A stretch of 64,000 bases of DNA from Strix aluco. Its lineage: Eukaryota > Chordata > Aves > Strigiformes > Strigidae. Positions 28,451-61,200 of this stretch are shown one piece after another. The notes beneath the pieces are model-generated. The model did not search any database. It was not told the origin of the DNA and worked only from the letters and a program-made list of their open reading frames with translations. Location of the stretch: contig NC_133954.1 of NCBI RefSeq assembly GCF_031877795.1, positions 10,197,466 to 10,261,465 on the forward strand, read 5' to 3'. The position numbers were made by a program, and so were the translations under genes. The first letter of the stretch is position 1. Each line of letters starts with the position of its first letter.

Positions 28451-28517
28451 CGGTTCAGCTCACTGATAGAACTTTACATATTGCTTTTCTACACACTACT
28501 TGTATAACGGTATTTTA

Positions 28518-28645: not shown

Positions 28646-33164
<4,519 letters not shown>

Positions 33165-37891: not shown

Positions 37892-39490
37892 GTGTCAACG
37901 TTTGAACTTGAGAACTGTTCAGTCGACTAAAGACCGTCATTGCCTTGGTTTGTTACGTGACTATCGAGATGGGAAACTGGCTGGAAATAGTATTGCATTC
38001 TTAGTTAAACTCTAAAGAAATTCTTGCCTAGTTTTGTGATTGGTTTTGTTCAGGTCTCAGGAGCTCTCCCTCCCTCTAGTAACTGGTAACGAGAAGGCCG
38101 TGCTGCTTTGGGGTGCCCTAGAGGCTACTGCAGAGTGAGAGCACCAGCCAGGCAGGAACATTCCTTCATGCCTTTCTTCCTACCCGAGTAGGAATGACAC
38201 TCGAGACCAAGCCCTTGTCCCGTCCCATCTCTTGGCTGGAGGCTTCACTGGGCTCTCTGGGGAGGGGCAGGCAGCCCAGTACGAGTGCAGGCCGCGGGGC
38301 GGTGCTGGAGCTCACTCTGCGCTGCCGGCCGGAGCTGGGCCCTGCTGCCGTGCTCACCCCTCGCAGAGACGGGGGAACCCGCCCTCCCGGGTGTGGCGCC
38401 TCCCTCCGGGCGCTCCTTCCCTGCCCGTTCCGACTCGGCAGAGCCCGTCCCCTGTCTCTGCCGGCTCAGTTCTGGCTGGATCGGGGCAGAGTGCGAGACG
38501 GCGCTTGAAATGGGCTGGTTGTCCTGGCTGGTCGTGAGCTCAGGTGGCTCCTGCTCCCGTTTGCGATTTGACCAGAGCCACTTCCTTGGCTAAAACCACG
38601 TCGCTTCACGTGTTACCTGGTGCCCCTTCAGCATGAGGCGCTTTGCCCGGGTGGAGAGAGGGGGAGGGGCTGGGTCTGGTGCGAGGGTCCTGGTGGTCGC
38701 TGCGCGGGGCCGGACGGACCCGCTGTCTCCTGGCCCCCTCCCGCCGCCCGGGCAGAGCCGCCGGCTGCCGCAGCCGGTGCCTGGGGGTGCGGGTGGCCCA
38801 CACCCACCCAGGGCCGTGGCAGCCCTTGTAGCCTTTCCCCTGCAAAGGGCGCGCTCGCGTGCCTGGTGACTCCTCTAAGCTGCCGGAACGTTTCATGGTC
38901 CATTACAAACCCCTTTGGAAATGACTGGTTGTGTTGCGTCAGTTTTTGTGTGTGGCGAGTGGGCCCATAACGCTGCAGGCTCCAAAATTTTCTTATTTAT
39001 AGTATTTCTACTTAAGTCCCCTCTTCAGGGAACGTTAAATCATTTGTTTCAGGAACCTCGCTGTTTCCCGGGTCTCGCTGTTACACCTATATATTCTTAT
39101 TGTGCAGTAGCCTTAATAGTTGTGTTAACCTCATTGTAACAACAGTGACAAATGGACTGAACTTTCTCCACTCCTTTTTTTACTTTGTTTTTGTTTCTTC
39201 TGCTTCCACACCTAAGAGCCATGTTGTCTCTTGCTGGTTTCCCAGGGATTTGCCCGGAGTGTGGAGGGCTGCTGGCCCTTGCTATAGACTCTTCTGTTGT
39301 TGTTTGTAGTAAGTCAACTCTTAGTCTTCCCGCTAATAAATATTCAGTAACAAACCAACTGCGTTCTAGCTGCCGTCTGGGAGCAGCACTTCCCCTTGTG
39401 TTTCTTTGTATTGATTCCTTTTCATTTGTTCAGCTCGCTTTGCCAGATGAAAGTATGTAAACTTTTACCATGTCAAGAAATTAAAATAAG
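37892..39490 (+). other. PSME3 3' UTR
   Basis: AT-richer, non-coding sequence following the stop. Two candidate signals mark its end: AATAAA at 39335-39340 and ATTAAA at 39480-39485. A long 3' UTR is also known for mammalian PSME3. A GC-rich block at about 38230-38860 lies within it. Confidence 0.55.
39335..39340 (+). terminator. PSME3 poly(A) signal candidate (AATAAA)
   Basis: First canonical AATAAA after the PSME3 stop; a second candidate (ATTAAA) lies at 39480-39485. Confidence 0.5.
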
Positions 39491-39499
39491 GTACTTGGA

Positions 39500-42400
39500 A
39501 TTCTTTTAAGGTAGCCCCTTGTGTGTGATACTGAGTCTCAGGCTGTGCAGTGCTCCTGTCTGTTCCGGTCCTGCCTCTCTCACATCCAGTTGCTCCTTCC
39601 CTGCGTTCTCCTCGCTCCTCTCCCTGACTGTGTTGTGAACTGCTACGCGCTGCTTTGTAGGTTGTTTCTGTTCCTTTAGCATGCCTTCAGTTTGGCCCAT
39701 GGTCTTGGGTTTAATGTGACCTGTCCCATGTCAACCCAGCGTGTGGGACTCGGGCTGTCTCGGTTAAAAGAGATGCAGGAGGTTTGTGTGGTGTTTCTCT
39801 CCAGGCCTGCAGCCCGCTCCGTGGCCACTCTGTGCCGCCGGCCTGGGTGCTGCGCCGGGGGCGTCTGCTCGGCGCATGGTCCTATAACTCTTGGCCGCTC
39901 CGTGCATGCAGTGCCAAAGGAAAGACGGGGTGCGCCACGGTCCCCCAGCTCCCCAGGGCATCATCCTTGTTCTTGTTGCGCTTCCTCCCGCGTCCGCTGG
40001 GCTGCAGAGACCTCTCCGGTGGCCCTCCCGCTCCACCAGCGCCCCAGCCACGCGCCGCAGGGCTGCAGCCCCCTCTGAGGGCCTGGCCCCCGGGACGGGC
40101 CGAGCTGGGTGTCTGGCCGGGGCTCGGCGGCACGTCCAGCCTCCACTGCAGCTGCTGGGGAGCGGAGCAGCCGCCTGCCCCGCGGTGCTTCCTGCCCCGT
40201 GGGAACGTCCTGCTGCCGCCGCCGCTCTGGGGAGGGTGGGAGTCGAGCTGGAAACAGGTCGCTGGGGGCCGAGGCGGCCGGTGCCAGAGCTCAGAGGCAG
40301 GACTCGACATGGTGTCGCACGAGGGGTCCCTCCCCGCCACAGCCAGAAGAAACTGAGCTCCCGGGAGGCCCAGGACGGAGCACCCGGGACAGTCGTTGCG
40401 GTGGGTGTCAGCAGGGAGCGGGACTCATCCGCAGGAGCTGGGGAGGGTCTGTTGCCTGGGACCTTCCCCCCTCGGTCTCAGTGGTTTCTGCTTTGCTCTC
40501 CAGGAGAAGTGGCAGCGTGCCCTCAGGTCTCTAATTCACAGGTTCCGGAGACATCCCAGCTTATATGCAGTGACCGTTAAAACTCTGAGAGGAGAATAAA
40601 GGCACAGCAGTCGTGTGCAGACACAAACACTGCCAGAAATGCAGCCAACATGGGTAAGGGTCAAGCAATTTCCACTGTTCCTTTTTACACAAGCTGACCC
40701 TGTGAGATGGGAGAGGGGGGTTTTTCCAAAGTCTGGGCTCTGGCTTGGGGTCTGCTGAAGACTTGCCCGTGTTAGGAGCGTTGGCAAGGGGTTTTCTTAC
40801 CATATCTTTACCCGGCTGTCTGGCAGTCACTGACTCGGAGCTTCCCTGAGCCAAAAGCTGTCTGTCTCTGGTTTTGGTTTCTATAAATTTCAGAGACTAT
40901 TTTTTGCCACCTCTACCTTTCTGTGCGAGTGAAAAACAGCAAACTCCTCTCTTCCTTGCTTTGTCTGGGAGACGTGGGCAATTGAGCAAATATAAGATGT
41001 ACTGATGGGTTATACCTCAAAGCAACCGTGTAGTCAAAATAACCCTCGGTAGGATGTGAATTCTCCGTATGAGGAGTGGGGCAGCGGTGGGTTGATCGGG
41101 CTGGGGAGCTGGGTGGTGGGAAGAGGTATGAGCACCAAACGGGTCATAAACAAGTTACGCTGCTGTTAGTGAGACATGTAATTTTTTAAATTCTAGGTTA
41201 GCTTTAAGCTGCTTCAGGCTTCTTTTGGAGAAGGTACGCAAGCACTTCAGTGGTATGTGTGGCCCTTAAAGATCCCCGATTGGTTTTCATCAGTAGGGTA
41301 CTGGCACGGGTTTCCTGGCTCGGCAGGCTCAGTTAATTACTCTGTTTCCTGAAACTTCTGCTGCAAGATGGAGATGGATTTAGGGCTGTTCTGTTTATCC
41401 TGAAACAGAGCTCCCAGAAAGTGCAGGCTGGTTCCTGTGTTGCTTGTAATAGGTTTTAAAAGTCCTCAGCTTGAAAAGTACAGCAGGAATGGACGGTGCT
41501 AAATAAGGTGGCATGAGACACGGCATCCGTGGCACATATCCTGTAGCAGGGCGGGGGCAGCACAGAAGGCTTCGTTTGTGTCGTCTGTATCCTGCAGGCC
41601 TGGGGCGTGTGCTGTGGGTTGGTTTGTCATGGGGGTGTCATTACATGTTAGTGTTTCTCTTTTTTTCCAAACACCCGACATGCACAGAACTGAGAGTGTT
41701 CCCACACTTTATTTTCAGACGTCTCCCAGGCGAGCTGCAGGGCTGAGCTGTGATTTGTGGGGCAGTAAGGCCTGTGGAGTTTATCCAGTTCTCTCAAACT
41801 ACTGCTGTGCTGCTCAGAAATGACCATCTGTAATTGCAGCCTGTGCCTTGACTTTTAGGGACTTGGGAAGCAAAACCAAGAAGCAAAGTCAAAACCAAAT
41901 GATCCGCTCTTTTTGTACTTCTTTAAGGAAATGTCAGTGTGAGCGTCGAGCGCTGGCGGCGTGGGTGTGTGTTGCAGCGGAACAGGCGCATGTAACGTCC
42001 CCGGGGGCAGGAGCCGCGTCTTGGCTCTGCTCTGAACCTCAGCTGGGGGCACAGCGCTGGTTCTCTGCACTCAGAGTGGAATGGATACCGTGTCCTAGGC
42101 TCACACCAAATGGGAGTTTTTCTTTCAAGCCTAAGCCCAAGTAGTCCTCAAAGCCTTGTTGACTTTGTGCATTGAAGGACTGACTGGGAAATTGGCGTTT
42201 CTTTGCTTAATTTGGGGCTACTGGGAGGCATCTGATTGTGCCACTGGAGGCCAGTCGAAGGCCGCTGGGAGCAGGGTGCCTCCGACGCCTGTAGCTGTCG
42301 CATCCCGCGTAGCCAGGGCTCTCCCCTCATCTGCTCCGTCTCTCCCCGTTCTTGTGCCCGTGCCGCAGAGCGAGCCCCTCTCCAGGCACAGTGGCCGCGT

Positions 42401-43852
42401 GACTTGGCTGCCACGGCTCTGCGGGTTTGCTGGCGCGCCGGCCGGCGGGCGGAGGTGACGCGGGCTGGCACGGAGCGGGCGTGCGTGTCCCCGGCCTGTG
42501 CAGCTGCAGCTGGGGCTGGAGAAGGCTGAGGCTGCTCGTGGTGGTGAGGATGATGGAGCGTGGCCTCTGGCAACGTGGCCTCGTGCCTGCCAGCGAGGTG
42601 CCTGGTCGGCACGGCCGGAGGGACCGCGGAGGAGCCAAGGCCAGGGCAGGATCCACTGCAGAGGGAGAGCTGGAGGCACTGCGGGGGGGCTGCCTCCCAC
42701 CAGGAAACTTTGACTGGAGGAGGAAGAGAAGGGCAGGGTGAGGTGAGGTGAGGCTGGCAGCAGGAGTGGAAATGTTGGGTCGAATCTCCAGCCCTGGTTC
42801 TCTTGGATGCCTTGTGCTTCCCAGCACCAGCCCAGGGACAGGCAGGGACTGCAGCTAATGGGGAGCATCTTGTCTGCCCCAGGCACCTGCAGCGTGGCAG
42901 GATGGAGCCCCGAGTCCTGTTGTCTGGCTGCCTTGTTCTGCCAGGGCTGTGGGACCAGCAGAGACCTGCCCGGGGCGGCAGAGGCAGTTGTTCAACCTCA
43001 GGTAGAAACCCTGGAGGCGGCTGCGCAGCCTGGGCGGCCGTGGCCTGGCAGCACCGCGACAGCAGGCGCTTGGGTGCCGCGGGTTGGGGGTGGTTTTGTC
43101 CTTGAGGGAACTGCACCTCAGTTTATCTTCGAGGCAGAGGCAAAAGCTGCGTGATCTTTTTAGTGGAATGCTGGGGGATTAATTAGCTCATGGCTGCTCA
43201 GAGGTGCAAACGAAGAGCCAGTTGTTCACAGCGCATTGGGGCCTGAATCTCATCCTGAACTACATCTCTCCACACCTGCTAGAGTTTTTCTACTACTACA
43301 CAGGTGGATATGTTTTCAGCAAAGGCTTCCATGTGGAAGATTTTAAAAAATAAAATAAAAAGTAACTCCAAGCTTGGAATCATGCTGCCAGGGAGAATGT
43401 TTACAAGGAAGCAGCCTGGTAAACAAGGAAAATCGGTGAGTTGCAAAGAGGTGAAATTCTACAGTGTGGCAACAATTCCCAGCTTGTCGGAGCCTCACAG
43501 TAGTCCCAGCCACCACAGACTGACTGCAAGATCTTCGTTTTTACAGGCAGGCTCAGGAAGCTAGGTTGGACTGAAAAAGTAACAGAATTACGTGAAACTT
43601 GTCTGAGTCACTGACCCTGCATCTCCACTAGTTCTTTCAGGGCACTGCTCGTGGAGGAGGACGGAGAAGGCTGCAGCTGGGAGAGGAGATCTGCCCTTTT
43701 GGTCACCACGAATTTCAGATCTCCTCCCCTAGCCTCTCCCAGTCCTTTGTACTTTCCGTGCTAATCCATCCAGTGCAGCGTAAACTGACAGAGGCAGCAG
43801 CTACAACCCTGCTCTGAAAGGTGCTGTGGACGCCACGGGACCAGCAGCAGAC
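39500..43852. other. Intergenic stretch between PSME3 and AOC2, no gene seen
   Basis: No open frame with recognisable similarity. An AATAAA occurs near 40595 and a short GAGGT repeat near 42737-42755. The sequence before 43853 presumably holds the promoter of the first AOC exon, but no TATA or other clear signal was found. Confidence 0.55.
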
Positions 43853-45419
43853 ATGCACGTGAGAACCCTGCTCATCGTCCTGGTCCTGGCTTTAGCCACG
43901 ATATTTGCTTTAGTCTGTGTGCTGCTGACCAGAGGAAGGGCCCCCGGCACCTGCCAGCACCAGCCCCCGGAGCAGAAGGACACCGATGACGGCCAGAGCC
44001 TGGTCTTTGCCGATCTGACGCCCGAAGAGATGGCGCAAGTGGTGCGGTACCTGCGGGGAAGCCTCGGGGTGCGGCTGGTCGACGCCTCGCGGGCAGAACC
44101 CTCCGACAGCTGCATCGCCTCCGTCGAGCTGCAGGTCCCCGCCAAGGCAGAGGTGCTGCAGTTCCTGGACGGGGCGGGGGCTCGCCCCCCCCGGGAGGCG
44201 CTGGCCGTGCTGTACTTTGGGAACCAGCCGGAGCCCAACGTCACCGAGTACGTGGTGGGTCCGCTGCCGATGCCGGCGTATCACCGGGATGTGACGGTGC
44301 AGAAGTATGGGGGGAAGGTGCCGTACCACCGCAGACCGACGCTGGCTGTTGAGTACAAGCAGATTGCAGCGTTTTTAAAGAGCCGAGTGTTCACCACGGC
44401 TCCATCTTTCATGCGTCAGGTCATGGAGTACGATGGAGCCAGTCTAGCAGCACTGACAGCTGCTCCCCGTGGATTCCAGTCCGGAGATCGGATCACCTGG
44501 TTCGTTTTGTTTCAGAACGTGAGCGGGTTCTTTGTGCACCCGGTGGGGCTGGAGGTGCTGGTGGACCACAGCAGCCTGGACATCTCCCAGTGGGCAGTGA
44601 GCAGAGTCTTCTACAACGGCCAGTACTACAGGGACATGGTGCAGCTGGAGAGCGCCTATGTGCAGGGTCGCATCAGCGTGGAGAAGGCGGGGAAGGCGCC
44701 GCGGGACGGGGACTTCTCGTCCATGAAGCCCCGAGCGCCTGCGGCTGCGCTGTTCCCGCTGCAGTTTGAGCCGCAGGGCCCCCGCTACAGCGTCAGGAAC
44801 AACCACGTCCTCTTCCAGGCCTGGAGCTTCGCCTTTGGGATGAGCGTGCACAGGGGCCTGCGCCTGTTTGACGTCCGACACAAGGGGGAGAGGGTTGCCT
44901 ATGAAATCAGCGTCCAAGAGGCGCTGTCAGTGTACGGCTCCAACTGCCCCGGAGGGATGTCGACGCGGTACATGGACGGGAGCTTTGGCATCGGGCGCTA
45001 CGCCTCCCCCCTGGTGCGAGGGGTCGACTGCCCCTATTTAGCAACGTACCTGGACGTGCACTACCTGGCTCATTCCCAGGTGTCTCGAGTCAGTAAAAGT
45101 GCCCTCTGCATCTTTGAGCAGAACCTGGGCTCCCCTCTGAGGCGCCACTACTCCAACTTGCAGTCGCTCTACTACGGGGGGCTGGTCAACTCCGCTCTGG
45201 TAGTTCGCTCCATTGCCACCGTGGGCAACTACGACTACGTGTGGGACTTCATCTTCTACCAGAACGGGGCCATCGAAGGCAAGGTCCAGGCCACGGGGTA
45301 CGTGACCTCGTCCTTTCTCCACGGGGATGGCCTGAGATACGGCAATAGGGTCTGGGAGCACACGCTGGGTACGATACACACCCATTCCATCAACTATAAA
45401 GTGGACTTGGATGTGGGAG
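43853..45419 (+). CDS. AOC2-like duplicated first exon (copy A), no 3' exons of its own
   Basis: An intact 1567-nt exon (522 codons plus one base) with the layout of copper/TPQ amine oxidase exon 1: cytoplasmic stub, membrane segment [20 protein letters not shown], then the oxidase domain. Catalytic Asp375 (YMDGSFGIG), the TPQ-forming Tyr460 in VGNYDYVW, and copper ligands His509 and His511 (IHTHS) are all present. VGNYDY and NGAIEG match human AOC2 rather than AOC3. The exon ends in an intact GTAGGT donor in the same phase as copy B. No exon 2-4 equivalents lie between it and copy B; they next appear at 51397. It is therefore either an alternative first exon of the AOC2 unit or a truncated duplicate. 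Read through the donor, the frame continues about 23 codons to a stop at 45499, which would lack the third copper ligand. The start is the ATG giving MHVRTLL. Confidence 0.8.
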
Positions 45420-45431
45420 GTAGGTCTGGGT

Positions 45432-48084
45432 CTTCCTTTAATGTCTGCCTTCATACTGGAAACCCCAGAGCTTTGGGCGGATTGTCTCCCACTCTGTAGA
45501 GTCCCTGATAACTGACATCAGAACTCTGCTTTTTCACTCTCCTCTTCTTTCACTGCAAAATTATTTTTCTAAGTATAAACTAGTCAGTCAAGGTCAGGGA
45601 GTTGAAGGCGGTGAGAATTGTCTGGGAGCTCTGTGTTCAGCCTGGGGAAAATATGAAAGGTAGCAGCTGAAAAATGTTTGTGTTTCCTTGAGGCCTCATG
45701 TCTGGCACAGTGCATGTTGCCATAGGCATGGCCCGGCAGACGAGGAGAGGCAGCCCTGTCTGAGCACTGAAGGTGTCAGCCTGCGCTGCCTGCGCCTGCC
45801 GCTGGTCCCCACACTCCTCTGAACTTGGGAAAGTCCTTTTTGTGTCCCGACTGCCCGGTGTAAAGCTGGACCGGGGCTCTGCAGGGCCGAGCTTGCGCAG
45901 CTCTATCCCCGCTCCTCTTTTGAGGAAACGCTTGTAAGTTGGATCCTGAGTCTCGGGCTGCAAAGCCGCTGCAGTGAGCCAGTGAATTCCCCTGCGCCTG
46001 CACACAGCCACGGTTTTGGCGGCGGATCCCTGCCCAGGGTTACTCGAGTCCAGGAGCAGCCCTTTGCTGCTCCGTCTGGCAGGCTGAGCAGGGAAGTGCG
46101 GGCACCCGCCCTGGGAGGCACCGGGATGCTCAGCCCGAGGGCGGCTTTGCTTCCCCTTAAAGCCATTCCAGTAGCTGCAGTCCGGGAGGGTGCAGGGCAG
46201 TGGGTGCTGGGGGCACAGACTGGCAGCAGTAGGTGTCTGTTACTGAAACCTGCTCCTGTAAAAGGCAGGGGAAAAGGGTTTTACATCTGCACGGGACCAA
46301 AGAGACCGCTGGTAGGCAGTGGACTGCATCTGTACTGGCCCGAGGAGGAATGCAGCTCCAGACACCCGTGCTGTGTCCTGGCCTGTGGGGAGTAACTGGA
46401 GACCTGGGTATGTCGAGCTGCCGCTGACTCCCGTGTGAGCCTTCAGTCCTGGTGTGTGTCCTCTCCTGGACCTGCTGCACTGCAGGGGTTTGTGTGGCCT
46501 TGAAAGCTGCTGCTGCTGTCATTATGGTCGAAAACAGGGCTGATACTGTGCCCTTCCTGTAAGCAAGGCTCAAAACCACGCCAGAATACAGTTGTGTGTG
46601 GTGGCAAGGTCCTTCTCTGTGCCTGCCGTGCCCCTCAGTTCCCTGCTCTGTTTATGGAGTCTGAGCTCTGGCTGCTGCAAAATGCTCTTGGGAAGAGTTA
46701 TGTAAAACCCCAGACTTGTTCCCCTTAGCGAGGGAGAGCAGCCCTGCCCGAGCAGCGGCCTCAGGGCCGTGCGGGGTGCGCGATCCCAACCTCCCGAGTG
46801 CAGGGACGGCGGAACTGCAGCACAGCAACGGTGGGTCATCTCCCACACAGGTCTCTTGGATCCTGATCCGAGGCTGGTGTGGGCCCAGCAGGGAAAAAGG
46901 GCGATTAATCCCTGGCTGGAAGTGAGGATGAGAACATAAGTTCCTAAATTAACATGATCACAAGAGTGGTAAATTGACCCAGAGCAGGAGTGGTTTTGGT
47001 CCCTGCCCAGCCCCTCCTGCCTGTGCCTCAGACCGTCCCCACCAGAAGGGTGCAAAGTGGACCACGATCTCCGGACAGCCGGCCTCGCCGCAGGGCTGGG
47101 CGCGGGGGGGACCGGCTGTGTGGGAGCTGGTGCTGCACAGGAGCAGCTGCCTTACGCCACGGTGGGGTGGCCCCAGTGCCCTGGCTCCCTGCTCGCTGCT
47201 CTGCTCGACAGGGAAGGTCCGTCGTGCCGTCAGGACTACGAACAGTTTCCTGACAGTAACTGTTTCTGTCTGTGGCAGCCCTGGTCCAAGGATCGTGGCT
47301 GCTGGAGTGGGGCTGGGATGGCCGAATGGGGACAGGTGTGTCCTCTTTGTTTTCCTGCAGCCTCTGCTCTTCCTGCTGCGGCCGCTCCAGGTCCTGCCTG
47401 TCACTTGCAGTTGCTGCCAGCGGGCACTGGTTTGGCGGTTCGGCGGGCACTGCCTCTTCTCAGCGAGAGCTTCCTCCCATCTTGGCTAGTCTGCCCACAG
47501 CTGGAGCCAGGCTGGAGCTGCCAGGTCGCTTCCCTCGGGGTCGGGAGGGACTTGGAGGCGACAGAATGGCAACAGGGAGAAGTGGCACGTGGAGGTGCTG
47601 GGGAGCCGGCGGGTCTTGGGCTCTCCTGGAGAGGCAGTCTGGGTGGGGAGCGGGGCCAGTCCCAGGGCACCGGCGTGCGGACGGACTGGGCCGGCTGAGC
47701 CCGCTCCTGCGGCATCGCTGTGCTCCCACCAGGTGGGACGGGGCGTCCTGGGAGAAGCAAAGGCCCCTTGGGCAGCGCGAGGCCGGGGCTTTGTGGTGTC
47801 ACCCTGGAGCGGAGAAACCCATCAGTAGCTTGGGCAGTGAGTCAGACGCCGGCTCCCCAGATGCCTTCCTCGGGCTGTCTGGGGTGGCGAGGAAACAGGC
47901 TGAACTGGCCGGGCCCTGTGATCTCTGCTCCGAGCCCCATGCGAGCTCCAGGCTCCCTCCCCGCCTCGCAAGCGACGCCTCTACGCCCACAGCCTGCAAA
48001 CGAGTTAAGAGTCTGGGCTGCAGGTGAGGGACGTGTTCTGGATGCTGCAGCCGAACGTCGCATGCTGTCTCGGCACTCGCAGAG
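45432..48084. other. Spacer between AOC first exons A and B, no gene seen
   Basis: No similarity to AOC exons 2-4 or to any other protein was found on either strand. Identity with the sequence after copy B ends 12 nt into the intron. The promoter of copy B should lie at the 3' end of this stretch. Confidence 0.6.
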
Positions 48085-51000
48085 ATGAACCCCAAACTTT
48101 CCTGCGTTCTCCTGGTCGGGGCTGCGGTGATAATCTTCATTCTTTCCTGCGTGCTACTGAGCAGGGGGAGGCAGTCACCCAGCTGTGAGTCCCAGCCCTG
48201 CATCGTGGAGAAGACGGAATCCACGAGCCACAGCCTGGTCTTTGCCGATCTGACGCCTGAAGAGATGGCGCAAGTGGTGCGGTACCTGCGGGGAAGCCTC
48301 AGGGTGCGGCTGGTCGACGCCTCGCGGGCAGAACCCTCCGACAGCTGCATCGCCTCCGTCGAGCTGCAGGTCCCCGCCAAGGCAGAGGTGCTGCAGTTCC
48401 TGGACGGGGCGGGGGCTCGCCCCCCCCGGGAGGCGCTGGCCGTGCTGTACTTTGGGAACCAGCCGGAGCCCAACGTCACCGAGTACGTGGTGGGTCCGCT
48501 GCCGACGCCGGCGTATCACCGGGATGTGACGGTGCAGAAGTACGGGGGGAAGGTGCCGTACCACCGCAGACCAATGCTGGGCAGCGAGTACGAGCAGGTT
48601 GGGACCTTTTTGAAGACGGTGGCGTTTGCTGCAGCCCCGACCTTCCTCAAAGAAGTCTTTGAGTACGATGGTACCAACGTGGCATTTCAGAGCACAGCCA
48701 CTCGCGGGTTCCAGTCTGGAGACCGTAAGTCCTGGTTCATCGTGTTTCAGAACGTGAGCGGGTTCTTTGTGCACCCAGTGGGGCTGGAGGTGCTGGTGGA
48801 CCACAGCAGCCTGGACATCTCCCAGTGGGCAGTGAGCAGGGTCTTCTACAACGGCCAGTACTACAGGGACATGGTGCAGCTGGAGAGCGCCTATGTGCAG
48901 GGTCGCATCAGCGTGGAGAAGGCAGGGAAGGCGCCGCGGGACGGGGACTTCTCGTCCATGAAGCCCCGAGCGCCTGCGGCTGCGCTGTTCCCGCTGCAGT
49001 TTGAGCCGCAGGGCCCCCGCTACAGCGTCAGGAACAACCACGTCCTCTTCCAGGCCTGGAGCTTCGCCTTTGGGATGAGCGTGCACAGGGGCCTGCGCCT
49101 GTTTGACGTCCGACACAAGGGGGAGAGGGTTGCCTATGAAATCAGCGTCCAAGAGGCGCTGTCAGTGTACGGCTCCAACTGCCCCGGAGGGATGTCGACG
49201 CGGTACATGGACGGGAGCTTTGGCATCGGGCGCTACGCCTCCCCCCTGGTGCGAGGGGTCGACTGCCCCTATTTAGCAACGTACCTGGACGTGCACTACC
49301 TGGCTCATTCCCAGGTGTCTCGAGTCAGTAAAAGTGCCCTCTGCATCTTTGAGCAGAACCTGGGCTCCCCTCTGAGGCGCCACTACTCCAACTTGCAGTC
49401 GCTCTACTACGGGGGGCTGGTCAACTCCGCTCTGGTAGTTCGCTCCATTGCCACCGTGGGCAACTACGACTACGTGTGGGACTTCATCTTCTACCAGAAC
49501 GGGGCCATCGAAGGCAAGGTCCAGGCCACGGGGTACGTGACCTCGTCCTTTCTCCACGGGGATGGCCTGAGATACGGCAATAGGGTCTGGGAGCACACGC
49601 TGGGTACGATACACACCCATTCCATCAACTATAAAGTGGACTTGGATGTGGGAGGTAGGTCTGGGTACTGTTAGACTCCAAAAACTTGGCATTTTTGATC
49701 CTTATACAGATTTTTCTTTCCCCACGCGGGCTGGCGTGGTGTGCTGATACAGAGCTGCCTCCTGTTCCTAGAGCAGTGACAAGCTGTTGTTGTACAGGGG
49801 GGGGTTCCCCCGTCCCATGCAGTTGCCCGCGGGCACCGTGCAGAGCTGCGCCTTCCTGGGCTGGGTAACGCCAGCACCGCTGTGGGCCCGGCCCCTGCCC
49901 CTGCTGGGAAGGGCTCTGCCCGCTGCGGCCTGCACAGACGGACCCAGCCCCGGCCCTGCCCCGTTGGCCTCAAAGCCTTCAGGGCTCTGCGGGAGTTGGG
50001 ATTTTTCCCTCTGCCGCTGGGCCGAGCCCCACGTGGGGGTTAGAGTTGGTGAAGCCGGACGTTGGGCCGTGGTTTCCCGCTCACATTCCTGCTTCCTGCA
50101 GCTTTGTCGAACTGTTCTGCTGTTCCCGTGCGAGTGGGACAGGCAGCTGCCCGCTCCGCGGGGCTGTGGGCAGAGCAGGCAGGGGCTGGGCAGGCAGCCA
50201 GCTCTGAGCTTTCGGCCGCGCGGCGTTTGCCAGGGTACGGGGGCTCCTTTGCTCACAGCAGCAGCTGGAGCATCAGCTGCAGTTTCTCGGTCTTCCCCCA
50301 CCGTTTGTGCCACACACCTGTCCTCGCCCTCCTGCTGAAAATGCATTTGCTGCGTGCTCCTGCCAGCTGCTAAAAATTTCCCAACTTCATTTTAATTGGG
50401 AAACACAAATGTTAAGACTGTTCCATGTGGTTTTAGGTTGAGTTTTGAGTACTTAATTAAAAATGGGGGATTGCAAAACCACAAGCACAGGGAAAAGGCA
50501 GATGAAATCAGACTGTCACTGCTGTCACTGGAAGGGGAGGTGTGGGGTTGGAAGTTTTGTGTGGATCCTCTTCCATGGGGCTCGGGCTCTGGTGCCTCGA
50601 CGGCAGCCCTGGGGCTCAGGCACAAGATGCTGCTCAAACCTTCTGGGATGGCCAGAGGTTCAGTCTGAAATGGCCTTTACACGAGCTGGAAACTCGCGTG
50701 GGGCCGAGGGAGGGGGGCATGGGAGGGTGTTACGCCACCTGCCCTGGCCGGGACAGGCAGCGGGTGCTGGGCACCGGCCCCTGTGCCAGCCCCGCGCTGG
50801 CGCTGAGCGCTCTCGGCCAGCTCTTTGCCATCTTGTCCCCAGATTTATTTGCTTTTGTGCCCCTCCTGTTGATCTGAGCCTCTGGCTCCTGGCTCTTCTT
50901 TGCGGAAAAACCTGACTGCACAGCTCTGCTCCAGCTCTGTGATGTGCAAATGTGCTCAGAGCCTGGGCTCTTGCTGGTGCTTTCCAGCTCGCAGGATGGT

Positions 51001-52831
51001 GCTGATGAGATAAACACAGTGCCTGGGCCATCAGGCGCTTGGGCTAATGAGACTGTGCTTGCACCGGGAAGCAAACCTGTTCTTCTGCACTGGGACGAGG
51101 CTCCCCCCTTCTCCCTTGCAGAGGGCAAGAGTCCCCGTGGTGGTGGTGTCTGCCACAACACGGTGCTGCCTGGGTCAGACAGACGTACAGTCGCACTGCC
51201 GGGATAAACGTACACGACATTGGTCACGGTGCAGCGGAGCTGCGGAGCGGCGGCGGCTCTCACGGGCAGGACCCGCTGCTCGGAGCCCGGCGTGCGGGAA
51301 GGGAGGATGGGGAGAGCGAGCTCTGGCTGCAGGGATGTCCGTGGGGAACAGGGGACTGGGGCAATGCTCCTCAGTGACTTTGCTTTTGCTTCTCAGGGGT
51401 GAAAAACTCTCTGGTGGCCCATGACATGGCGTTTGAGATGGTGCGGGCTCCCTGGAGCCCAGAGCAGCAGATAGAGCGGCCACGACTCGCCAAGAAAGTG
51501 CTGGACACGGAGGACCAGGCTGCCTTCCGGCTCCAGTCGAAGATGCCCAGATACATCTACTTTGCAGCCAACAGCAAAAACAAGTGGGGCCACCAGCGTG
51601 GCTACAGGATCCAGATCACCAGTTCTGCGGGGGACCATGTCCCCGAGGGCAGCTCCATGGAGAGGGCCATCAGCTGGGCAAGGTCAGGCTGCTCTGGCTG
51701 GGACGCAGGTGCTCAGGGACACCCCCAGCCCCACTGGCACAGATGGTCCCTGGTGGGGGGGCACAGGGCGGACACTCGCCTGGGCCAGGGTTACGCCGCA
51801 GGAGCAGGCTGTGCTCTGCAGACACCGCGGGCAGCCGGCCCTTAGCGCTGCCCTGCCCCAGGGGGCTGCTCCCGGCTTTTTTCTTGTCCTCAGGTACCAG
51901 CTGGCTGTCACCCGGCGGAAGGAGGAGGAGCCCACCAGCACCAGCATCTACAACCAGAACGACCCCTGGACGCCCACCGTCGCCTTTGCCGACTTCATCA
52001 ACAACGAGACCATCACCAACGAAGTGAGCTGGGGTCCCCTGGGCTGGAGTGTAGTACCCAGCTCTGGGCTGAGCGGGAGCCCCAGCGCTGCCCAGGGGCC
52101 GAGCGACCCCGGCATGTCCTGCAGGACATTGGGCTCAGGGGGGAGAGTGGCAGCCCCAGGGTTTGAGCATCCCCTTCTCTGTGTATCTGCTCGGTGCTTC
52201 GGTCAGAGCGCACAGATCAGAGTGCAGAGCAGGAGCTTGTTTCTCCCTATGGACAAATGCTGGCAAAAGGTTGGGAAAATCTCTGCGAGGCCGGAGCTTG
52301 GCCACGGGGGTCAGGGCAAGGGCCCTTCTTCCGGGTGGGTGTCTGTGGCTGTGGCTGCGGGCAGGTCTTTGGGGAAGGGAGGGAACCTTTCCCAGGAAGG
52401 GGGAGCTCGGCACGTGGGAATGCGGCTGGGCTGGAGCCTGTGGAGTTCCCCTCCTGCTTTCCTGTAACTTCCCAAGCCCCCTGCGCAGATTCTGGCCACT
52501 TCAGGGTTCTGAAATAACTGTGGTCTTGTGGCTCTTCCCTGTCTAGGACCTGGTTGCCTGGATAACTGCCGGTTTCCTTCACATCCCACACTCTGAGGAT
52601 ATTCCCAACACTGTGACAGTGGGCAACTCGGTTGGCTTTCTCCTGAGACCCTACAACTACTATGACCTCGACCCCTCCATATACTCACACGATGGTGTGT
52701 TTTTCACCAGCGAGCAGGACTTCACGGCCTGTGACGTCAACCCGATTGCGTGCCTGCCCAAAACCGCCTCTTGTCTGCCAGACTTCCCCCCGTTCACCTA
52801 TGATGGTTTCCAAAACATGAGCAGGCTTTAA
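48085..52831 (+). CDS. AOC2: AOC2, copper/TPQ amine oxidase (complete copy B)
   Basis: Semicarbazide-sensitive primary-amine oxidase, expected at the cell surface as a type II membrane protein; oxidises amines to aldehyde, ammonia and H2O2. Four exons: 48085-49654, 51397-51682, 51894-52023 and 52547-52831; phases close, giving 756 aa. Residues 8-25 are a hydrophobic anchor. Catalytic Asp376 (YMDGSFGIG), TPQ Tyr461 (VGNYDYVW), copper ligands His510 and His512 (IHTHS), and the third ligand in exon 4 ([12 protein letters not shown]). Assignment to AOC2 rests on [21 protein letters not shown] and PFTYDGF, which follow human AOC2, and on position between PSME3 and AOC3. Gene conversion with the neighbours blurs the 5' third, so exon 4 and the TPQ region are the safest guide. 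No clear poly(A) signal was found downstream. Confidence 0.85.
49667..51396 (+). other. AOC2 intron 1 (copy B), no exon seen
   Basis: 1.7 kb intron. It contains a short perfect inverted repeat (TTTCCCAA / TTGGGAAA near 50377-50404) and otherwise nothing recognised. The acceptor is CTTCTCAG ending at 51396. Confidence 0.6.
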
Positions 52832-54284
52832 TGCTACAGGACGGTGTTAGGAGACACCGTCAGAGACACCAGGTTGACTGTTCTGTCTCAGATTTTCAGT
52901 TTTTTAGTGAAGTTGTCTCAATTTGCAGCTGTACAATGACTTAACTTTTTATCACTGCTTTTAAAATAGTGCTCTTTAGAAGGGAAGCGTAATCTCTCTG
53001 GCATAATGCCAGATGGGAGTCTGCATTATCTCTGTTAATTGCTGAATTTGAGTCTGTTGCAGGAGGAAACCGAGGAGAAAACCCTGTTCCTCTGCTGTAG
53101 AAGCAAGTGCTGTGTAGTGCCTCTCAGGTTTAAAAAATGAAAATGGTTCTGGTCCAGTGCGCTCTCCAGTGTCCTGTTCTTGTGACTTACAGCAGTGTCC
53201 GCTGGGTGGGGGGATGACGCTGGCTCTCCGCCAAGTTTCCTGTGAGGTTCTGGGTGTCCGTCTGGGCGCGGGAGGGCCCAGCCGGCAGGACGGGCTGGAG
53301 GAGTCCCAGGGCGCTGGCACCAGGCACGGCGGGTGCTCGGGGTGATGCTGGGAACGGGGCCAGGACCTGCTTGGGCTGCAGCTCTTGGGCACTCGCCGCT
53401 GGGTGCGGGTGAGGGGAGCAGAGGGGACAGTTGCAGGGACGGGCCTTGCTGTCCCCATGGTGCCTCTGCGTGACGCAGCCAAGCCTCAGCCCCGCGGGCA
53501 GCGCGGGGGCCAGCTCAGCCCGTCCCAGGCTGCTGCCCGGGGTCACACCAGAGCCCACACGAGCCCGGGCGCGGGAGCCACGCGGCCGCTGGCGGTGCGG
53601 CACGGCCAGGGCCGCTGCCCGTTTGCCAGGATCCTGGGTGCGCTCTGGAGCCCTCGTCCCCCCCCCTCGCAGTCCCGTCTATGCCAGGACGCAGCCCAGG
53701 ATCGAGAGGCACCTTTGGGGGGTGATGAGCTGCTGTCCCCCCATTTCTCCCGGCTGCAGGACCGGCGCCTCCCCGGGTGCGGGTGCTTGGCAGCAGCGAG
53801 TGGTGCTGCGGTGTCTGCGCAGGCTGCAGAGGCGTTGGGGGGGGGGGGGGGGGCGCGGCAGGATGGGGCCGTGGTGCTGTGCTCAGCACCGAGGAGTGTC
53901 ATCCTGCAGCCCCTGTGGCCTGCACTGGGGGTAAGAGGAGGTGCAGGGAGATGTATTTGTTTCACCCAAGTGACCGGATCCGTCCTCTCCAAGGTCTGCG
54001 TGTGGGACGAGAGGGGAAGGACAGATGCAGAAGCATTAAGTTTACTTAAAATTATGACTCACTGGGGGAAGCAGAGCAAAGCTGCCTTTTGCAGCTCCCA
54101 GCAAATCTGGGGCATGTCTGAGAACACCCCCCTCTGCCTTCCCCGCCAGCTCCTCTGGGCTGTTCCCTGTTGAGAAAACGGGGAAGAAAAACCCAACCAA
54201 ACCCTGCCCCTTCTGCCGACGAGTTGCTGGGAGGATTCTGCCGCTGGAAACCTGCCCTGTCAGACTGTGGGAGCTCTCGGAGAC
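52832..54284. other. AOC2 3' UTR and AOC2-AOC3 spacer
   Basis: The first few hundred bases are AT-rich and probably AOC2 3' UTR; no AATAAA is present. A run of 17 G lies at 53837-53853. An AP-1-type TGACTCA lies near 54055-54061, about 225 nt before the AOC3 start. No other gene is seen. Confidence 0.5.
53837..53853 (+). repeat. Poly-G run
   Basis: Seventeen consecutive G between AOC2 and AOC3; length may be inexact. Confidence 0.8.
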
Positions 54285-57200
54285 ATGAACATGAAAACCC
54301 TGCTCATCGTCCTGGTCCTGGCTTTAGCCACGATATTTGCTTTAGTCTGTGTGCTGCTGACCAGAGGAAGGGCCCCCGGCACCTGCCAGCACCAGCCCCC
54401 GGAGCAGAAGGACACCGATGACGGCCAGAGCCTGGTCTTTGCCGATCTGACGCCCGAAGAGATGGCGCAAGTGGTGCGGTACCTGCGGGGAAGCCTCGGG
54501 GTGCGGCTGGTCGATGCCTCGCGGGCAGAACCCTCCGACAGCTGCATCGCCTCCGTCGAGCTGCAGGTCCCCGCCAAGGCAGAGGTGCTGCAGTTCCTGG
54601 ACGGGGCGGGGGCTCGCCCCCCCCGGGAGGCGCTGGCCGTGCTGTACTTTGGGAACCAGCCGGAGCCCAACGTCACCGAGTACGTGGTGGGTCCGCTGCC
54701 GACGCCGGCATATCACCGGGATGTGACGGTGCAGAAGTACGGGGGGAAGGTGCCGTACTATCGCAGACCCGTTACCGGTAAGGAGTACGTGGATATCAAC
54801 ACCCTCATCCAGCAGGAGCTGAGAAAGGCCCCGCGCTTCCTCGCCACATGCTGCGAGTCCGATGGGACCGACCTGGCCATCCTCACGACGGCCCCACGGG
54901 GCTTCAAGTCCGGCGACCGCACAACCTGGTTTGTCCTCTTCCACAACGTGGCCGGCACCGGCTACTACCTCTCGCCGGTGGGGCTGGAGGTGCTGGTAGA
55001 GCACAAGGACCTCCACGTCTCCCGCTGGCGGCTGCGCCAAGTCTTCTACAACGGCCGGTACTTTGCCAGCACAGGGGATCTGGAGGACGCATTTGTGGCC
55101 AACTTGCTGGAGGTCGTCAGGGTCAGGAAGCCCCAGGCTGACACGGTGCTGGGCTCGATGAGACCCCGGCACCCGCCTGGCTCCCCGGGTCCGCTGCACT
55201 ACGAGCCCCAGGGTCCCCGCTACAGTGTCAGGGGCAACCGCATCACCTTCCAGGGCTGGAGCGTTGCCTTCGGCATGAACCCCAACTCTGGCCCGCGCCT
55301 CTTTGACATCAGGTACCGCGGAGAGAGGATCGTCTATGAGCTGAGTCTCCAGGAGGCCTTAGCCCTGTACGGCTCCAACTGCCCCGGGGGCATGTCGACC
55401 CGCTACCTCGACGGGAGCTTCGGCATCGGCAGGTTTGCCTATGAGCTCGTCCGGGGCCTCGACTGCCCCTACACAGCGACCTATGTGGACCGGCACTACC
55501 TGGCGGAGTCAGAGACCCCCAAAACCAACCAAAACTCGCTCTGCATTTTTGAGCATGATGCTGCCCTCCCTCTGCGGCGCCACTTCTCTGACTCTCAGTC
55601 CTTGTACTACGGCGGGCTGCGGAAGAACACGCTGGTCATCCGTGCCATCTCCACTCTCATCAACTACGACTACATCTGGGACTTCATGTTCCACGGCAGC
55701 GGGGCCGTGGAGGTCCGCGTGCACGCCACCGGCTACATCAGCTCCTCCTTCCTCCATGGCCGAGGCACCGACTACGGCAACCAGGTTGGGCCGCACACGC
55801 TGGGGACGATGCACCTCCACCACATCCACTACAAGGTGGACCTGGATGTCAACGGTAGGTTTGGGGGTCTTCTCGCGTGGCTGCACTTCACTGTGGGCTG
55901 TGGCTCTGCCGGGGGCACGGAGCTCGAGAGGGTTTTCCCTTCTGCTGCACAGGGCAGATGAACTCTCTGGAGACCCAGGACATGGGGTACGAGCTCGTGA
56001 AAGAACCCTGGAGCATGCAGAATACCATCGAGCGGCCGTACCTCCGTAGGGAAAGGCTGGAGAGGGAGGACGAGGCAGTGTTCCCGCTCAATGCCCCCAT
56101 GCCCCGCTACCTCTGCTTTGCCAGCCCCTTCACCAACAAGTGGGGGCATCCGCGCAGCTACCGGATCCAGATCACCAGCTTCGCCGGGGAGCACCTGCCC
56201 GCCAGCAGCCCCATGGAGAGATCCATCAGCTGGGGCAGGTGGGTGCCAGGGCTGGGGCGTGCGCAGCTCCTGCCCCCCCGCCACGGCCTCAGCTGCTCCT
56301 GCCTCGTGGCACGGGGGGGCCGCTGCCTCCCAACAAGCCTGTGTCAGGCTGCAGGGAAGGGTTAAACAGCAAACACGTGTATTTTTTGGCTCTGAAAATT
56401 CCTTGAAAAGTTGCTCAATGACATCTGTTCATAGTAGTTCGCAGGCAGGAATCTGACCCCAGATAAGATCAATTTAGAGCAATTACATGTGCTTTTCCCT
56501 GTGAGGGCAGCCAGGCTGTGGGATGAACTCCCAAGGGAAGCATTGGCATCCCCAGGTCTTGACATCCTCAAGTGAGGACAGAATGTCTCTTGGAAGAAGC
56601 TTGGGATAAACACAGAACTGGCTCAGTGCCGGGGTGAAATTTAATGGCTCATGTTCTGGGGGAGGCTGTAGGAGTTAAAAGTGGCTGTGGCTGAAGTGAG
56701 GGCGTCGGGCAGCGAGCAGCAGCGTCTGCACCTGGACATGTTCGTGTTTCCCAGCTGTGCTGGAGCGGCCGTGGGCAGTGAGCGATTCCCTGCGAGCCCC
56801 AAGGTGCCGGGGCTGCTGCCTGTCCCTGCCACACAGTCCCTGCCAGCCCCTTCCCTCCCTGACCCGGGATGGGCCGGGTCCCCCAGCACACACCAGGGTA
56901 GCATCTGGCCCCGTTTGCCAGCGCATCCCCAGGCGGTGATGCTGTGGCCCCCCTGCCCCGTGCCAGAGCCCCCCTGCTCCCCTCGCTGGCAGGTACCAGC
57001 TGGCTGTCACCCGGCGGAAGGAGGAGGAGCCCACCAGCACCAGCATCTACAACCAGAACGACCCCTGGACGCCCACCGTTGCCTTCGCTGACTTCATCAA
57101 CAACGAGACCATCACCAACAAGGTGAGCTGGGGTCCCGGGGCAAAGGGGAGCTGAGCACTGCGGGTCCCCCCTGGCTCCTGCCCTGGCCGGAGCCTTCAC

Positions 57201-57585
57201 CCATCTCACAGCCAAACTGGGCGGCTGCTGGGCCAGAAGGGCCCTGCTCAGCCTGACGGCGCCTGGCTCCCCTCCTGCCCAGGACCTGGTGGCCTGGATC
57301 TCCGTGGGGTTCCTGCATGTGCCCCACGCTGAAGACGTCCCCAACACGGTGACCGTGGGGAACGGCGTCGGCTTTTTCCTGAGGCCCTACAACTACTTCG
57401 ACGAGGATCCCTCGGTGGATTCGCCTGACAGCGTCTACTTCAGCAGCGAGCAGGACGCTGGGGCGTGCGGGGCCAATCCCCTCGCCTGCCTGCCCCACGC
57501 CACTGCCTGCACCCCCTACCTGCCCCCCTTCCGCTACGGGGGCTTCCTCAACCTCAGCCTGGCACGGCCACCCGGCGGGATCTGA
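54285..57585 (+). CDS. AOC3: AOC3 (vascular adhesion protein 1-like), copper/TPQ amine oxidase
   Basis: Cell-surface primary-amine oxidase; in mammals also a leukocyte adhesion molecule. Four exons: 54285-55854, 55953-56238, 56993-57122 and 57283-57585; phases close, giving 762 aa (human AOC3 763). Membrane anchor at residues 5-26. Catalytic Asp376 (YLDGSFGIG), TPQ Tyr461 ([10 protein letters not shown]), copper ligands His510 and His512 (MHLHHIH), third ligand in [49 protein letters not shown] and DQDAGAC-like SEQDAGAC follow human AOC3 and not AOC2. The RGD present in human AOC3 near the C terminus is absent. The first 463 nt of coding sequence nearly match copy A (see findings). A second in-frame ATG lies two codons downstream of the chosen start. 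Intron 2 carries a CR1-like fragment. Confidence 0.87.
56495..56690 (+). mobile_element. Decayed CR1-like LINE 3' fragment
   Basis: In AOC3 intron 2. The order of words resembles the 3' end of a sauropsid CR1 LINE: a GGATGAACTCCC stretch, a CATCCTCAAGTGAGGACAG stretch, an ACTGGCTCAGTGC stretch, GGTGAAATTTAATGGC, and a GGAGGCTGTAGGAG end. It is clearly old and lacks coding sequence. The call rests on remembered consensus, so family and exact borders are uncertain. Confidence 0.5.
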
Positions 57586-58267
57586 CGGGGCTGGGGCTGC
57601 TGCTGCCCCCGTCCCTGCTGGTGCAGATGGTCCGTGTCTGGCTGCCGGGTGCCCCCTTGGAGGGGCTTCGCTGCCACACCAGGACCTGCCCTCCCCATGC
57701 CTGGGATGTCGTGTGCTCTGGGTCAGGTTTTCAGAGGAGCTCAGCTCTCATTTCGGCACCGTGACGCTGCCGAAGGTGGACTCAAAGCCTCTGAGAAACA
57801 GCCCCTAGGAGTGATTTTTGGAGACTCCATTCAGGATGCCACCCAAAGTGCTGTGGGGTGCCCATGGCCGCTCTCCTCCTCTGGGACCGGGGCTCCTGCC
57901 ACCTCTCCAAGGTAGGTCAGTGCACACAGGGCCAGGGCCGGGCACTGCACAAAGCTGCAGCCCCCCTTGGAGCCCAGGGTTTGCCCAGGGTGGCGGGAGC
58001 AGCTGCCGTGGCAGCCACTATGGCCCAGCCACTGCCTGGGGGCGTTGGGCTGCGCGGAGCCAGCGGCCTCCACCCTGGCCCCAGAGCTGCTGCAGCTCCA
58101 GGGCTGCTGGGGCCCAAGTGACGCTGAGTTCTGGCTGCTGTGGGGGTGCCAAGCTCTGGGACAGGGACAGGTCACTGGGCTGCACTGGGAGCCCACAGGA
58201 GCAGCACGGTGCCTGGCTGTGGGATGGGCACTCCCCAGGCTGAGCTGCCCCACGTCCACCCTTCCCC

Positions 58268-58273
58268 AATAAA
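58268..58273 (+). terminator. AOC3 poly(A) signal (AATAAA)
   Basis: Only canonical AATAAA downstream of AOC3, 680 nt after the stop. It implies a 3' UTR of about 700 nt, 57586-58290. Confidence 0.6.
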
Positions 58274-58289
58274 CAGGCACTTGGGTGCT

Positions 58290-61200
58290 TTTTCTGACCA
58301 AACTGTTGCATCGCTCGTGGGTGCTGCTGTGACTTGTGTGGCTGGTGGCCAGAGCCCCGGCACTGCTGATGCTGCGGGTGCTGGTGCCCTGTAACAGCCG
58401 GTCCTGGCTCGGATCCACGGTGCTCACGGGGGCCCGAGGGCCACGGGGCCGGTTCCACACCCGGCACGGCTGCGTGAGCGAGCACCAGCTGTGCTCTTGG
58501 ACCCCGGTGCTGGCAGGAGGCTCCCGCCGGGGAATATGGGACAAACAAGGGAGTTAATGTGTAACGGCTGTTCCGAGCCGCATTAATCGGCTCTGGCCTT
58601 GGCTGCTGCCCGGCGTGCTCAGCCCCTGCCGGCGTGGGGACCCTTGCTGGCGTGGGGACCCTTGCTCCCGCACTCCCAGCTGTGTGCACAGCCCCGGGCT
58701 GTGGCATCCCGCAGCCTCCGGAGCCCGTCCCCACTGTGCCAGGCTGGGCTGGGGACACCAAGAGCCTTGGTGAGGGCGGTTCAGCTCCAGCCTCACGGCC
58801 CAACCCTGGCACGTGGCTGCAGATGCCAAACGCTGGCCCCTGTGTCCCTGGGGCCGTGGTGGGCGTCTGTCCCCTATGAGCCCTCCCCACGGGAGCTGTG
58901 GGCATGGCTCAGTGCAAGGCTGCAGCGGTCCCTGGGTGCCCTTGGAGGGACAGCAGGGGCTGTGCCCCAGGGGCATTTCTTGGGGGGAGCAGGCAGGATG
59001 CTCCCTGTGAGGGGAAGGTCGTGGCCGGCTGGCTCCCTGCTCGCCGCTCTGTCCCCACGTGTTTGCGTGTTTGCGAGTGCTGCCTGGACTCTGCCCGTGT
59101 GCTGACGCAGGTTAGGCCGGACACGCTCCCGTGCTGGCAGTGACCCAGCTCGCTGCCTGGCCCCAGACCTCGTGGCAGGCTGGGAACTTTCTGGATAAGC
59201 ACTGGCACCGTGCGTGGCGCGTTGCGTTACAACACCGACGTGCGCTGCACCTGCAGGAGCTGCAGCTGGTGCCTCGGGGATTGCAGGGACACCGTGTCCC
59301 GGAGCGAGCCGCTGCCACGGCCGGGACCCAGCTCCTGGGCTGCCAGCTGGCCCTGGGCTCACTGCCCACAGACCCCGCTGCAGCAATACAGCACCCCCAG
59401 CCTGGCCCCGTTCCCCCCCCCAGGAAGCTGCCCCGGCCAGTTCATAATGCACGTCCCTGGCCAGCACGGCTGCCTGGTGCAGGGGGCGGACAGGCTGGAG
59501 CCTGGCACAGCACTCCCAGAGCTGCAGCCAAACTGGCCAGGATGCAAAACCCTGTGGTGCCCAGGTCAGCAGCCTCCGCCACCCCGGCCTGCCCAGGCTC
59601 CGCGCAGGACCGGCGGTTTACTCGAAGCACAAGGCACGGAGCCGGCGCTGGGAAACCTCTGCCCTGTGGGCGCTGGCAGCTCCAGCACAGACCTGCCCTG
59701 GGGCACATGGAGCCCGGCTGTGGCACCGGGGGATGCTGGACTGTGCCGCTCCATCACCGGCACAGCCCCGTCACCGGCACAGCCCTGTCACCGGCACAGC
59801 TCTCCCCTCGGCACGGCTCCGTGCACACTCCCGTTGCGCGCCGGCCCCCACCATCCTGGGAGGGAGGAGGCCGCTGCTCCCGTCCCATTTCCTGGCCTCT
59901 CCCCTCTGCAGCCCCAGTTTTCCCGCAGTGACTCTTTCCAAGGAGACTGGAGCATGCTCGTCCCCATCCCCCAACACCTTTTGCCCCCATTTTCTGCTGT
60001 GAAATCTCTCAGGGAGAATTATCGCTGACTGTTTCAAAACATTTTTGACACGGAAGCCAAGTCTGTTGCATTCCTTCACGCTGGCCAAAGCCATTCTCAG
60101 TTGAGGACCCTGGAATGAGCTCCTGGGGAATTTGTTTTGCAAGAGTAATTCCATTTCTGTGCAAACTTCTGCTTTGCTGGGTTTTGTTTGTAGGTTGGGA
60201 ACTCAGTCCGGGGACGGGGACGCCTGGGTCCCGCTCCCCCAGGCGCAGCGAGGGTGGCCTGGAAGGGGCGGGAGGAACAGCCCTGGGCAGGGACGCGCCT
60301 GCAGTCGGGGCTGATCCTGCAGTGCTTCCACCACTTCTCTCCCGGGCACTTTCCTCTCCTTCACGTGTGTCCCCAGCTCATGGGCGGCAGCTGGGAAATC
60401 GCCGCTTGGCAGGACCAGGCTCACGCCGGTGCTGCCTCCCCCCACGCGCAGCCCTGGCCACCCCCGGGCTCCCTGGCCCCGCTCCTGCTCCCTGGCACGG
60501 CCCCGGGGACAGAGTTGGACCAGGCCAGCCTGGGCCAAGGGTGCTGAGCACGGGGTCAGGCTTCGCTGTGCCCTCGCTGCCTGGGAGCACCAGCCCCGGG
60601 GTGACGTGAGAACGCGGGGGGGTCCCAGCAGCCCCTTGGTGCTGAGGACGAGCTGCCCGCAGAGCACACACGGTGCTGCTCTGTGACCGCGGAGCTGCCC
60701 CGGCAGCCCCAGCCGTGCGGGGCCGATGGAGGCAGATCTCTGAGCATCCAGCCGCCCGCAGAGCACGGGCGTTTGTGGGTACAATGCCTCTCCCTGGGCC
60801 TGGCAGCTCCGAGAGCGGTTTGCCATGGGTTTGCCTGTCAGAGCCCACGGCTCCCCGGGCCACGTGCAGGCAGGGGACAGGAAGCTGCCCACTGCCCTCG
60901 CTGGCTGCGCAGAGGTGTCGGCGGGCAGGACTCGGCGCTGGACGGGGCCTCTGCCTGCTGGGCACTGTGGCAAACGGCATGCGGGTAGCGGCACACGGGT
61001 AGCGGTTCAAGGATCTTGACCTGAACTTTCTCGACTAGGGAGATAAGTGATGCATTTTCACTGGCTGCTAATCATTAACGCCTTGTTGCCTGTTCCCCCA
61101 GGAATGGGCAGCTGCCTGTTTTGCTGCAGCCGGCTCTGGCTGGGCGCCATGGGGCTGCGTGTAAGCACACCAGCGGCCGTGGTGGCCGGCCAGAGCTGGG

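Follow-up and report, generated by a model that had tools for sequence, protein, structure and literature searches.

Two large copper amine oxidase first exons (A and B) lie in tandem ahead of a single set of downstream exons in Strix aluco, and they may be alternative first exons of one gene with shared constant exons. We regard this reading, which comes from the letters of the DNA, as evenly poised between right and wrong. The window, which means the whole stretch of 64,000 nucleotides that was analyzed, corresponds to C24:10197466-10261465 of a 1.41 Gb assembly with 202 contigs. It contains no N and lies on a contig of 10.6 Mb. The exons concerned are the following, with positions counted in the window:

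43853..45419, + strand: first exon A, with the anchor, D2, D3 and the first part of the catalytic domain; open, phase 1 end, donor GAG/GTAGGT
48085..49654, + strand: first exon B, with the same layout and donor as A
51397..51682, + strand: exon 2 of B, common to A if A is used; in-frame join, from the exon searches
51894..52023, + strand: exon 3 of B, common to A if A is used; 125/130 nt identical to exon 3 of the paralogue C
52547..52831, + strand: exon 4 of B, common to A if A is used; third copper His and stop

A sequence-only reading of this locus had placed two first exons at 43853-45419 and 48085-49654, and neither pair of coordinates needed correction. The two exons share their end phase and an identical GAG/GTAGGT donor, as had been claimed, and both fit the acceptor at 51397. 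Joined in frame to exons 2-4, A gives an open predicted product of 755 aa and B one of 756 aa, neither with an internal stop. A, B and the downstream paralogue C each have the Pfam domains Cu_amine_oxidN2, N3 and Cu_amine_oxid (start of the catalytic domain) in their first exon. Counted along the human AOC3 alignment, the equivalents of Asp386, TPQ Tyr471 (in NYD) and the copper ligands His520/522 are also encoded in exon 1 of all three, which bears out the earlier statement that the catalytic Asp, the TPQ Tyr and a pair of copper His are present in both A and B. The remaining copper ligand, the His684 equivalent, is encoded in exon 4 of B at 52580-52582, and A would obtain it only via the shared exons. 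For Asp386, TPQ Tyr471, His520/522 and His684 we assume the roles that these names imply.

The surroundings of the block were also inspected. PSME3 lies upstream of the AOC block, and a Pfam match under the curated cut-off hinted at COA3. For the kinase piece, putatively WNK4, the Pfam match (E 0.09) also fell under the cut-off, and no Pfam match was obtained for the piece that is putatively G6PC. The order WNK4-COA3-PSME3-AOC-G6PC is presumably that of human chromosome 17.

The Pfam domains and the bit scores of the B product (930 to AOC3 vs 624 to diamine oxidase) place the locus in the AOC2-4 group of copper amine oxidases. Of the 756 residues of the B product, 1-751 matched human AOC3 (E 8.5e-279). 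The residue at the AOC3 Thr212 position is Thr in A, Ser in B and Thr in C, and according to PMC7144023 the marker of mammalian AOC2 is a His at this position. In the survey PMC12058724, AOC2 is placed in all vertebrates and AOC3 in amphibians, reptiles and mammals, and the non-mammalian AOC2-4 group stands apart from the mammalian one. AOC2/AOC3 are treated as a local duplication in mammals in PMC2566581. The label AOC2, used in the sequence-only reading, may follow common usage for birds, but the mammalian His is absent and the label is not established. A, B and C are AOC2/3-like, and no ortholog name is given here.

The paralogue C had been left out of the sequence-only reading, and it is needed to understand A. 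It starts 1.45 kb past the stop in exon 4 of B and is a complete gene (54285-57585) with a product of 762 aa:

54285..55854, + strand: exon 1 of C, the partner in the anchor and D2 tracts of A
55953..56238, + strand: exon 2 of C
56993..57122, + strand: exon 3 of C
57283..57585, + strand: exon 4 of C, to the stop

Between B and C, exon 3 is identical at 125/130 nt, compared with 199/286 columns in exon 2 and 189/289 columns in exon 4 (exon 4 of C was taken 14 nt short). Judged by this comparison, exon 3 of B and C (51894-52023 and 56993-57122) is likely a separate small gene conversion tract, exons 2 and 4 being at 65-70%.

No copy of exons 2-4 for A was found with tblastn, blastn and nhmmer in 25000-43852, 45420-48084 and 57576-62340, and the best E value in the gap from A to B (45420-48084) was 0.16. 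Two blastn matches, with the lowest E values of all these searches, were taken as chance. One (E 0.003) joined exon 2 of B to 50 nt of B's own intron 1; the other (E 0.008) covered 43 nt near 37358-37395, where the nhmmer E value was 0.073. Neither place was among the tblastn matches listed. When the whole assembly was searched with exon 1, four matches were obtained from five scored candidates. These were A, B, C and one further copper amine oxidase first exon at C1:158037784-158039247, on another large contig, which has its own exons 2-4. The latter gene scored 707 bits to diamine oxidase vs 382 bits to AOC3 and is assigned as AOC1, human diamine oxidase being the nearest relative with a solved structure. 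In the search of the assembly with exons 2-4, all nine matches at E ≤1 came from B, C and the AOC1 gene (three each); the best 11 candidates were scored, and a badly decayed set could escape. The assembly holds four such first exons vs three downstream exon sets. The claim that A is intact and has no exons of its own was therefore upheld, locally and in the assembly, for any set not too decayed to be detected.

Splice sites were scored by a weight matrix. The donors of A and B were third-equal among the 358 GT sites in 45419-51396. The acceptor at 51397 scored 12.4, and only one of the 413 other AG sites in the stretch scored higher. The AG ahead of B's ATG had an acceptor score of 6.5. The rival acceptors en route were 47361 (11.9) and 51122 (12.7), the latter of which B too must skip. 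On the + strand no AATAAA was present between 43354 and 58268, and neither AATAAA nor ATTAAA was present in 45420-48084. The one ATTAAA between A and exon 2 (50456) lies inside B's own intron 1, and the variant poly(A) hexamers after A were TATAAA at 45574 and AATACA at 46585. With the strong donor of A, the weak acceptor at B and no AATAAA, joining to 51397 would be the likely result if A is transcribed.

The best donor among the 358 GT sites was 48023 (CAG/GTGAGG), with a strong acceptor at 47361 and a weak acceptor at 48083, just ahead of B's ATG. In the interval 47361-48083, B could perhaps have a 5' untranslated exon, or these sites could bound a tiny intron.

The upstream region of A is not CpG-rich (o/e 0.31-0.40). 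TAATCC, which we take to be the CRX/OTX core, occurs at 43176-43181 and 43762-43767, within 700 bp upstream of A. A retina link of A via this motif was set aside, as the window has 8 TAATCC vs 7.4 expected, and the two sites near A are a post hoc lead only.

The alignment of A with B and C showed that A is a mosaic of four segments:

43853..43990, + strand: segment 1 of A (anchor), codons 1-46; 135/138 nt equal to C and 71/138 to B
43991..44338, + strand: segment 2 of A (D2 domain), 116 codons; 339-341/348 nt equal in all three pairs of A, B and C
44339..44515, + strand: segment 3 of A (D3 domain), 59 codons; differs in all three, A-B 112/177 nt and 30/59 aa
44516..45431, + strand: segment 4 of A (catalytic part and donor); 301/301 aa and 900/903 nt equal to B, 605/903 to C

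All three A-B differences in segment 4 were synonymous. The last 729 coding nt of A are exactly those of B, and the identity continues for 12 nt of the intron and stops there. The variable columns numbered 472; up to 233 of them in a row were shared only by A and B (maximum in 10,000 shuffles, 45), and up to 65 in a row only by A and C (maximum, 9). Gene conversion is the likely cause of this pattern. Upstream of the exons, the regions of A and B did not align with each other, and in the window compared with itself no match at E ≤1e-4 was found in introns or upstream regions past short exon flanks. The mosaic and these non-matching introns and upstream regions suggest that A is an old duplicate homogenized piecemeal, not a recent copy. 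Over most of their length A and B are thus not independent of each other, a point left out of the sequence-only reading. The open frame over about 463 of the 522 codons of A is therefore no proof of use, since conversion refreshes the frame.

The earlier proposal of two oxidases differing in the anchor and in substrate-side residues held at the level of the predicted products, which do differ there; elsewhere the difference is four aa only. The proposal is thus supported in its structural half, and its promoter choice is a conjecture. Apart from the anchor and the D3 island, 10 codons distinguish A from B, with four replacements, all in D2. A Thr to Met change at codon 44270 is an A-only replacement within this shared D2 part.

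On the same comparison, the 59-codon D3 stretch (44339-44515) is the only old coding piece specific to A. The island is open in A and in register with B. Between A and B its dS was 1.70 (near saturation) and its dN 0.34, giving a dN/dS of about 0.2, and pN was 0.27 vs a pS of 0.67. The island dN to C was 0.54 for A and 0.49 for B. Identity to human AOC3 was 22/58 in A, 18/58 in B and 28/57 in C, and identity to the bovine enzyme was 20/58, 16/58 and 25/57, respectively, C being nearest in both cases. The stop-free frame was dropped as proof of island function, because 59 codons stay open with a chance of 0.36-0.41 after 33 neutral hits.

The history of the island was then simulated with B as the ancestor and indels ignored, and a run was counted as fitting when it had no stop and a pN not above the observed value. 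In the matched simulation, pS was held at the observed 0.67 and constraint at 0.15-0.30, with four settings of 1000 runs each. Without a neutral phase, 63-100% of the runs fitted. When the last 10, 20, and 30% of the A branch were neutral, the share was 27-70, 9-51, and 3-30%, respectively; it was 0.2-3.7% when the last 50% was neutral and 0/1000 per setting for the whole branch. An earlier, harsher simulation with 400 runs had a pS of 0.74-0.77 vs the observed 0.67, and this excess change overstated the case for A. In that version 15.5-97% of the runs fitted without a neutral phase, 0-8.5% with 20% neutral and 0-1.3% with 30% neutral, and whole-branch neutrality gave 0/400 per setting. These simulations suggest that A was a constrained coding exon over much of its history, and it may have been an orphan in the later part.

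In PMC7144023, residues 173, 177, 180, 210, 211, and 212 of human AOC3 are at or near the substrate channel, and residue 212 is described as highly conserved per mammalian subfamily and suggested to be relevant to substrate selectivity. All six positions fall in the island, where the residues are A, K, A, A, L, T in exon A and G, E, G, F, Q, S in exon B. At positions 176, 216, and 227, A, B, C and the human and bovine enzymes share Y, R, and F. The nine channel positions were chosen after the island was known and were partly checked against PMC7144023; six of them differ between A and B, which is no enrichment, as 29/59 island residues differ (chance of at least six, 0.22). The matched-pS rerun and the lack of channel enrichment moved weight from the use of A toward decay.

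If A and B are alternative first exons, each would be transcribed from its own upstream region, and each donor would join the sole downstream set at 51397. Exon 1 of B would be skipped in A transcripts, as a start exon without a strong acceptor. Both products would have the common catalytic part and exons 2-4, together with a different anchor and a different D3 face of the substrate channel, so that the chemistry would be the same and the substrates perhaps different. A would once have been a tandem gene of AOC2/3 type with all its exons. It would have lost exons 2-4 to a deletion that ran from its intron 1 to upstream of B and placed A ahead of those of B, and conversion with C (anchor and D2) and B (catalytic part) would have homogenized all but the D3 island.

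A could instead be an orphaned partial duplicate without exons 2-4, silent or giving unproductive RNA, and kept intact-looking by conversion with B and C. We hold this to be a serious possibility that falls short of an even chance. The conversion tracts span nearly all of A but 59 codons, with the final coding part equal to B, and these 59 codons, being stop-free with a fair chance after neutral change, are by themselves unremarkable; moreover, a neutral phase confined to the final 10-30% of the A branch was possible in simulation. On the other hand, the D3 island has an uninterrupted frame that keeps register with B, and in amino acids it is no more diverged from the human and bovine enzymes than B is. 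A neutral half branch fitted at most 3.7% of the runs, and a neutral whole branch none (0%). The decaying partial duplicate, which the sequence-only reading had named as its alternative, is thus excluded in the form of whole-branch neutrality and hardly fits over the last half, and it is allowed over the last 10-30%.

Two further explanations carry less weight. If A is transcribed and ends early, intron retention up to the stop at 45497-45499 would give a protein cut short before the third copper ligand. Reading past the donor does add a short open tail to 45499, and the TATAAA at 45574 lies behind it, but no AATAAA or ATTAAA follows on the + strand up to 48084, the donor is strong, and the product would have no exon 4 with the His684 equivalent. 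Read-through as the main product of A was rated low on account of this missing ligand, and we consider early ending highly improbable. An assembly or polishing artefact, by which the exons of A were lost or A and B were made falsely alike, is also improbable, if somewhat less so. Zero A-B differences over 729 coding nt would be a possible outcome of mis-polishing. Against this, the window has no N and lies on a 10.6-Mb contig, and the search of the assembly turned up no surplus set of exons 2-4. The flanks do not align and the anchor and D3 differ, which argues against a simple false duplicate.

Alternative first exons as proposed for A and B have known counterparts. Variable first exons with constant exons are described for the UGT1, Gcnt2, and protocadherin clusters (PMC1885805), and the owl locus likewise has two large homologous tandem first exons with the same phase and intact donors, and one common downstream set, with none found for A. 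In UGT1, tandem first exons of like length and phase encode the substrate-side N-terminal part and precede one set of four constant exons, according to the same paper. The owl locus differs in having only two first exons, with much of the catalytic domain also in exon 1. Furthermore, conversion is prominent in the owl locus, whereas it is given as not prevalent in Ugt1, the dog excepted (PMC1885805). For Ugt1, a promoter of its own for each first exon and the corresponding joined mRNAs are on record; in the owl locus both would be predictions. The protocadherin alpha and gamma clusters share the variable first exons, constant 3' exons and strong first-exon conversion (PMC1885805), but they encode adhesion proteins from more than a dozen first exons, compared with an enzyme and two first exons in the owl.

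The locus also resembles the vertebrate AOC2/AOC3/AOC4 tandems, since B matches human AOC3 over nearly its full length and the block lies downstream of PSME3. Unlike A, the mammalian AOC2, AOC3, and AOC4 genes are taken to have four exons each of their own. A splice form of human AOC3, VAP-1 delta 3, is a precedent for splice variation in an AOC gene, although the part of PMC3548902 that was available describes a shorter transcript of one gene and not alternative first exons. In the literature covered, which included little subscription literature and makes these absences weak, we found no description of an AOC member with an intact exon 1 but no exons 2-4, and, by title and start of abstract, none of alternative first exons or conversion in AOC2/AOC3. 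The words "exon" and "gene conversion" are absent from the main text of PMC12058724.

In its widest form, the proposal is that one locus gives two amine oxidases by first-exon choice, with selection keeping the 59-codon channel island distinct and conversion equalizing the anchor, D2, the catalytic part and exon 3. We consider this wider proposal unlikely, though worth stating. It would describe a modular enzyme whose substrate choice is swapped via promoter choice, perhaps the first such case among copper amine oxidases. If A is used, an enzyme family quite unlike that of UGT1 would have acquired a UGT1-like layout, perhaps through one deletion, and the substrate-side segment would be its variable cassette. 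Such a small two-exon system would be suitable for studying the origin of variable-first-exon clusters, and it would let one ask whether functional residues are shielded from conversion by selection. Were A dead, the locus would be a clear case of conversion masking gene loss, and a caution against taking an intact reading frame as a sign of use.

Two minor observations concern base composition and the 3' end of B. The third-position GC of the D3 island rises from 0.56 (A) through 0.70 (B) to 0.85 (C); segment 1 has 0.76-0.77, and segments 2 and 4 have 0.84-0.87 in all three exons. The island values fit a GC-biased conversion that bypassed the island in A and B, but the unconverted parts of C are GC-rich too. 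Between the stop of B and the start of C (52832-54284), one AAGAAA at 54184 was the sole match of 11 hexamer variants, and the first AATAAA, at 58268, lies past C. B may use an unusual poly(A) signal or run into C.
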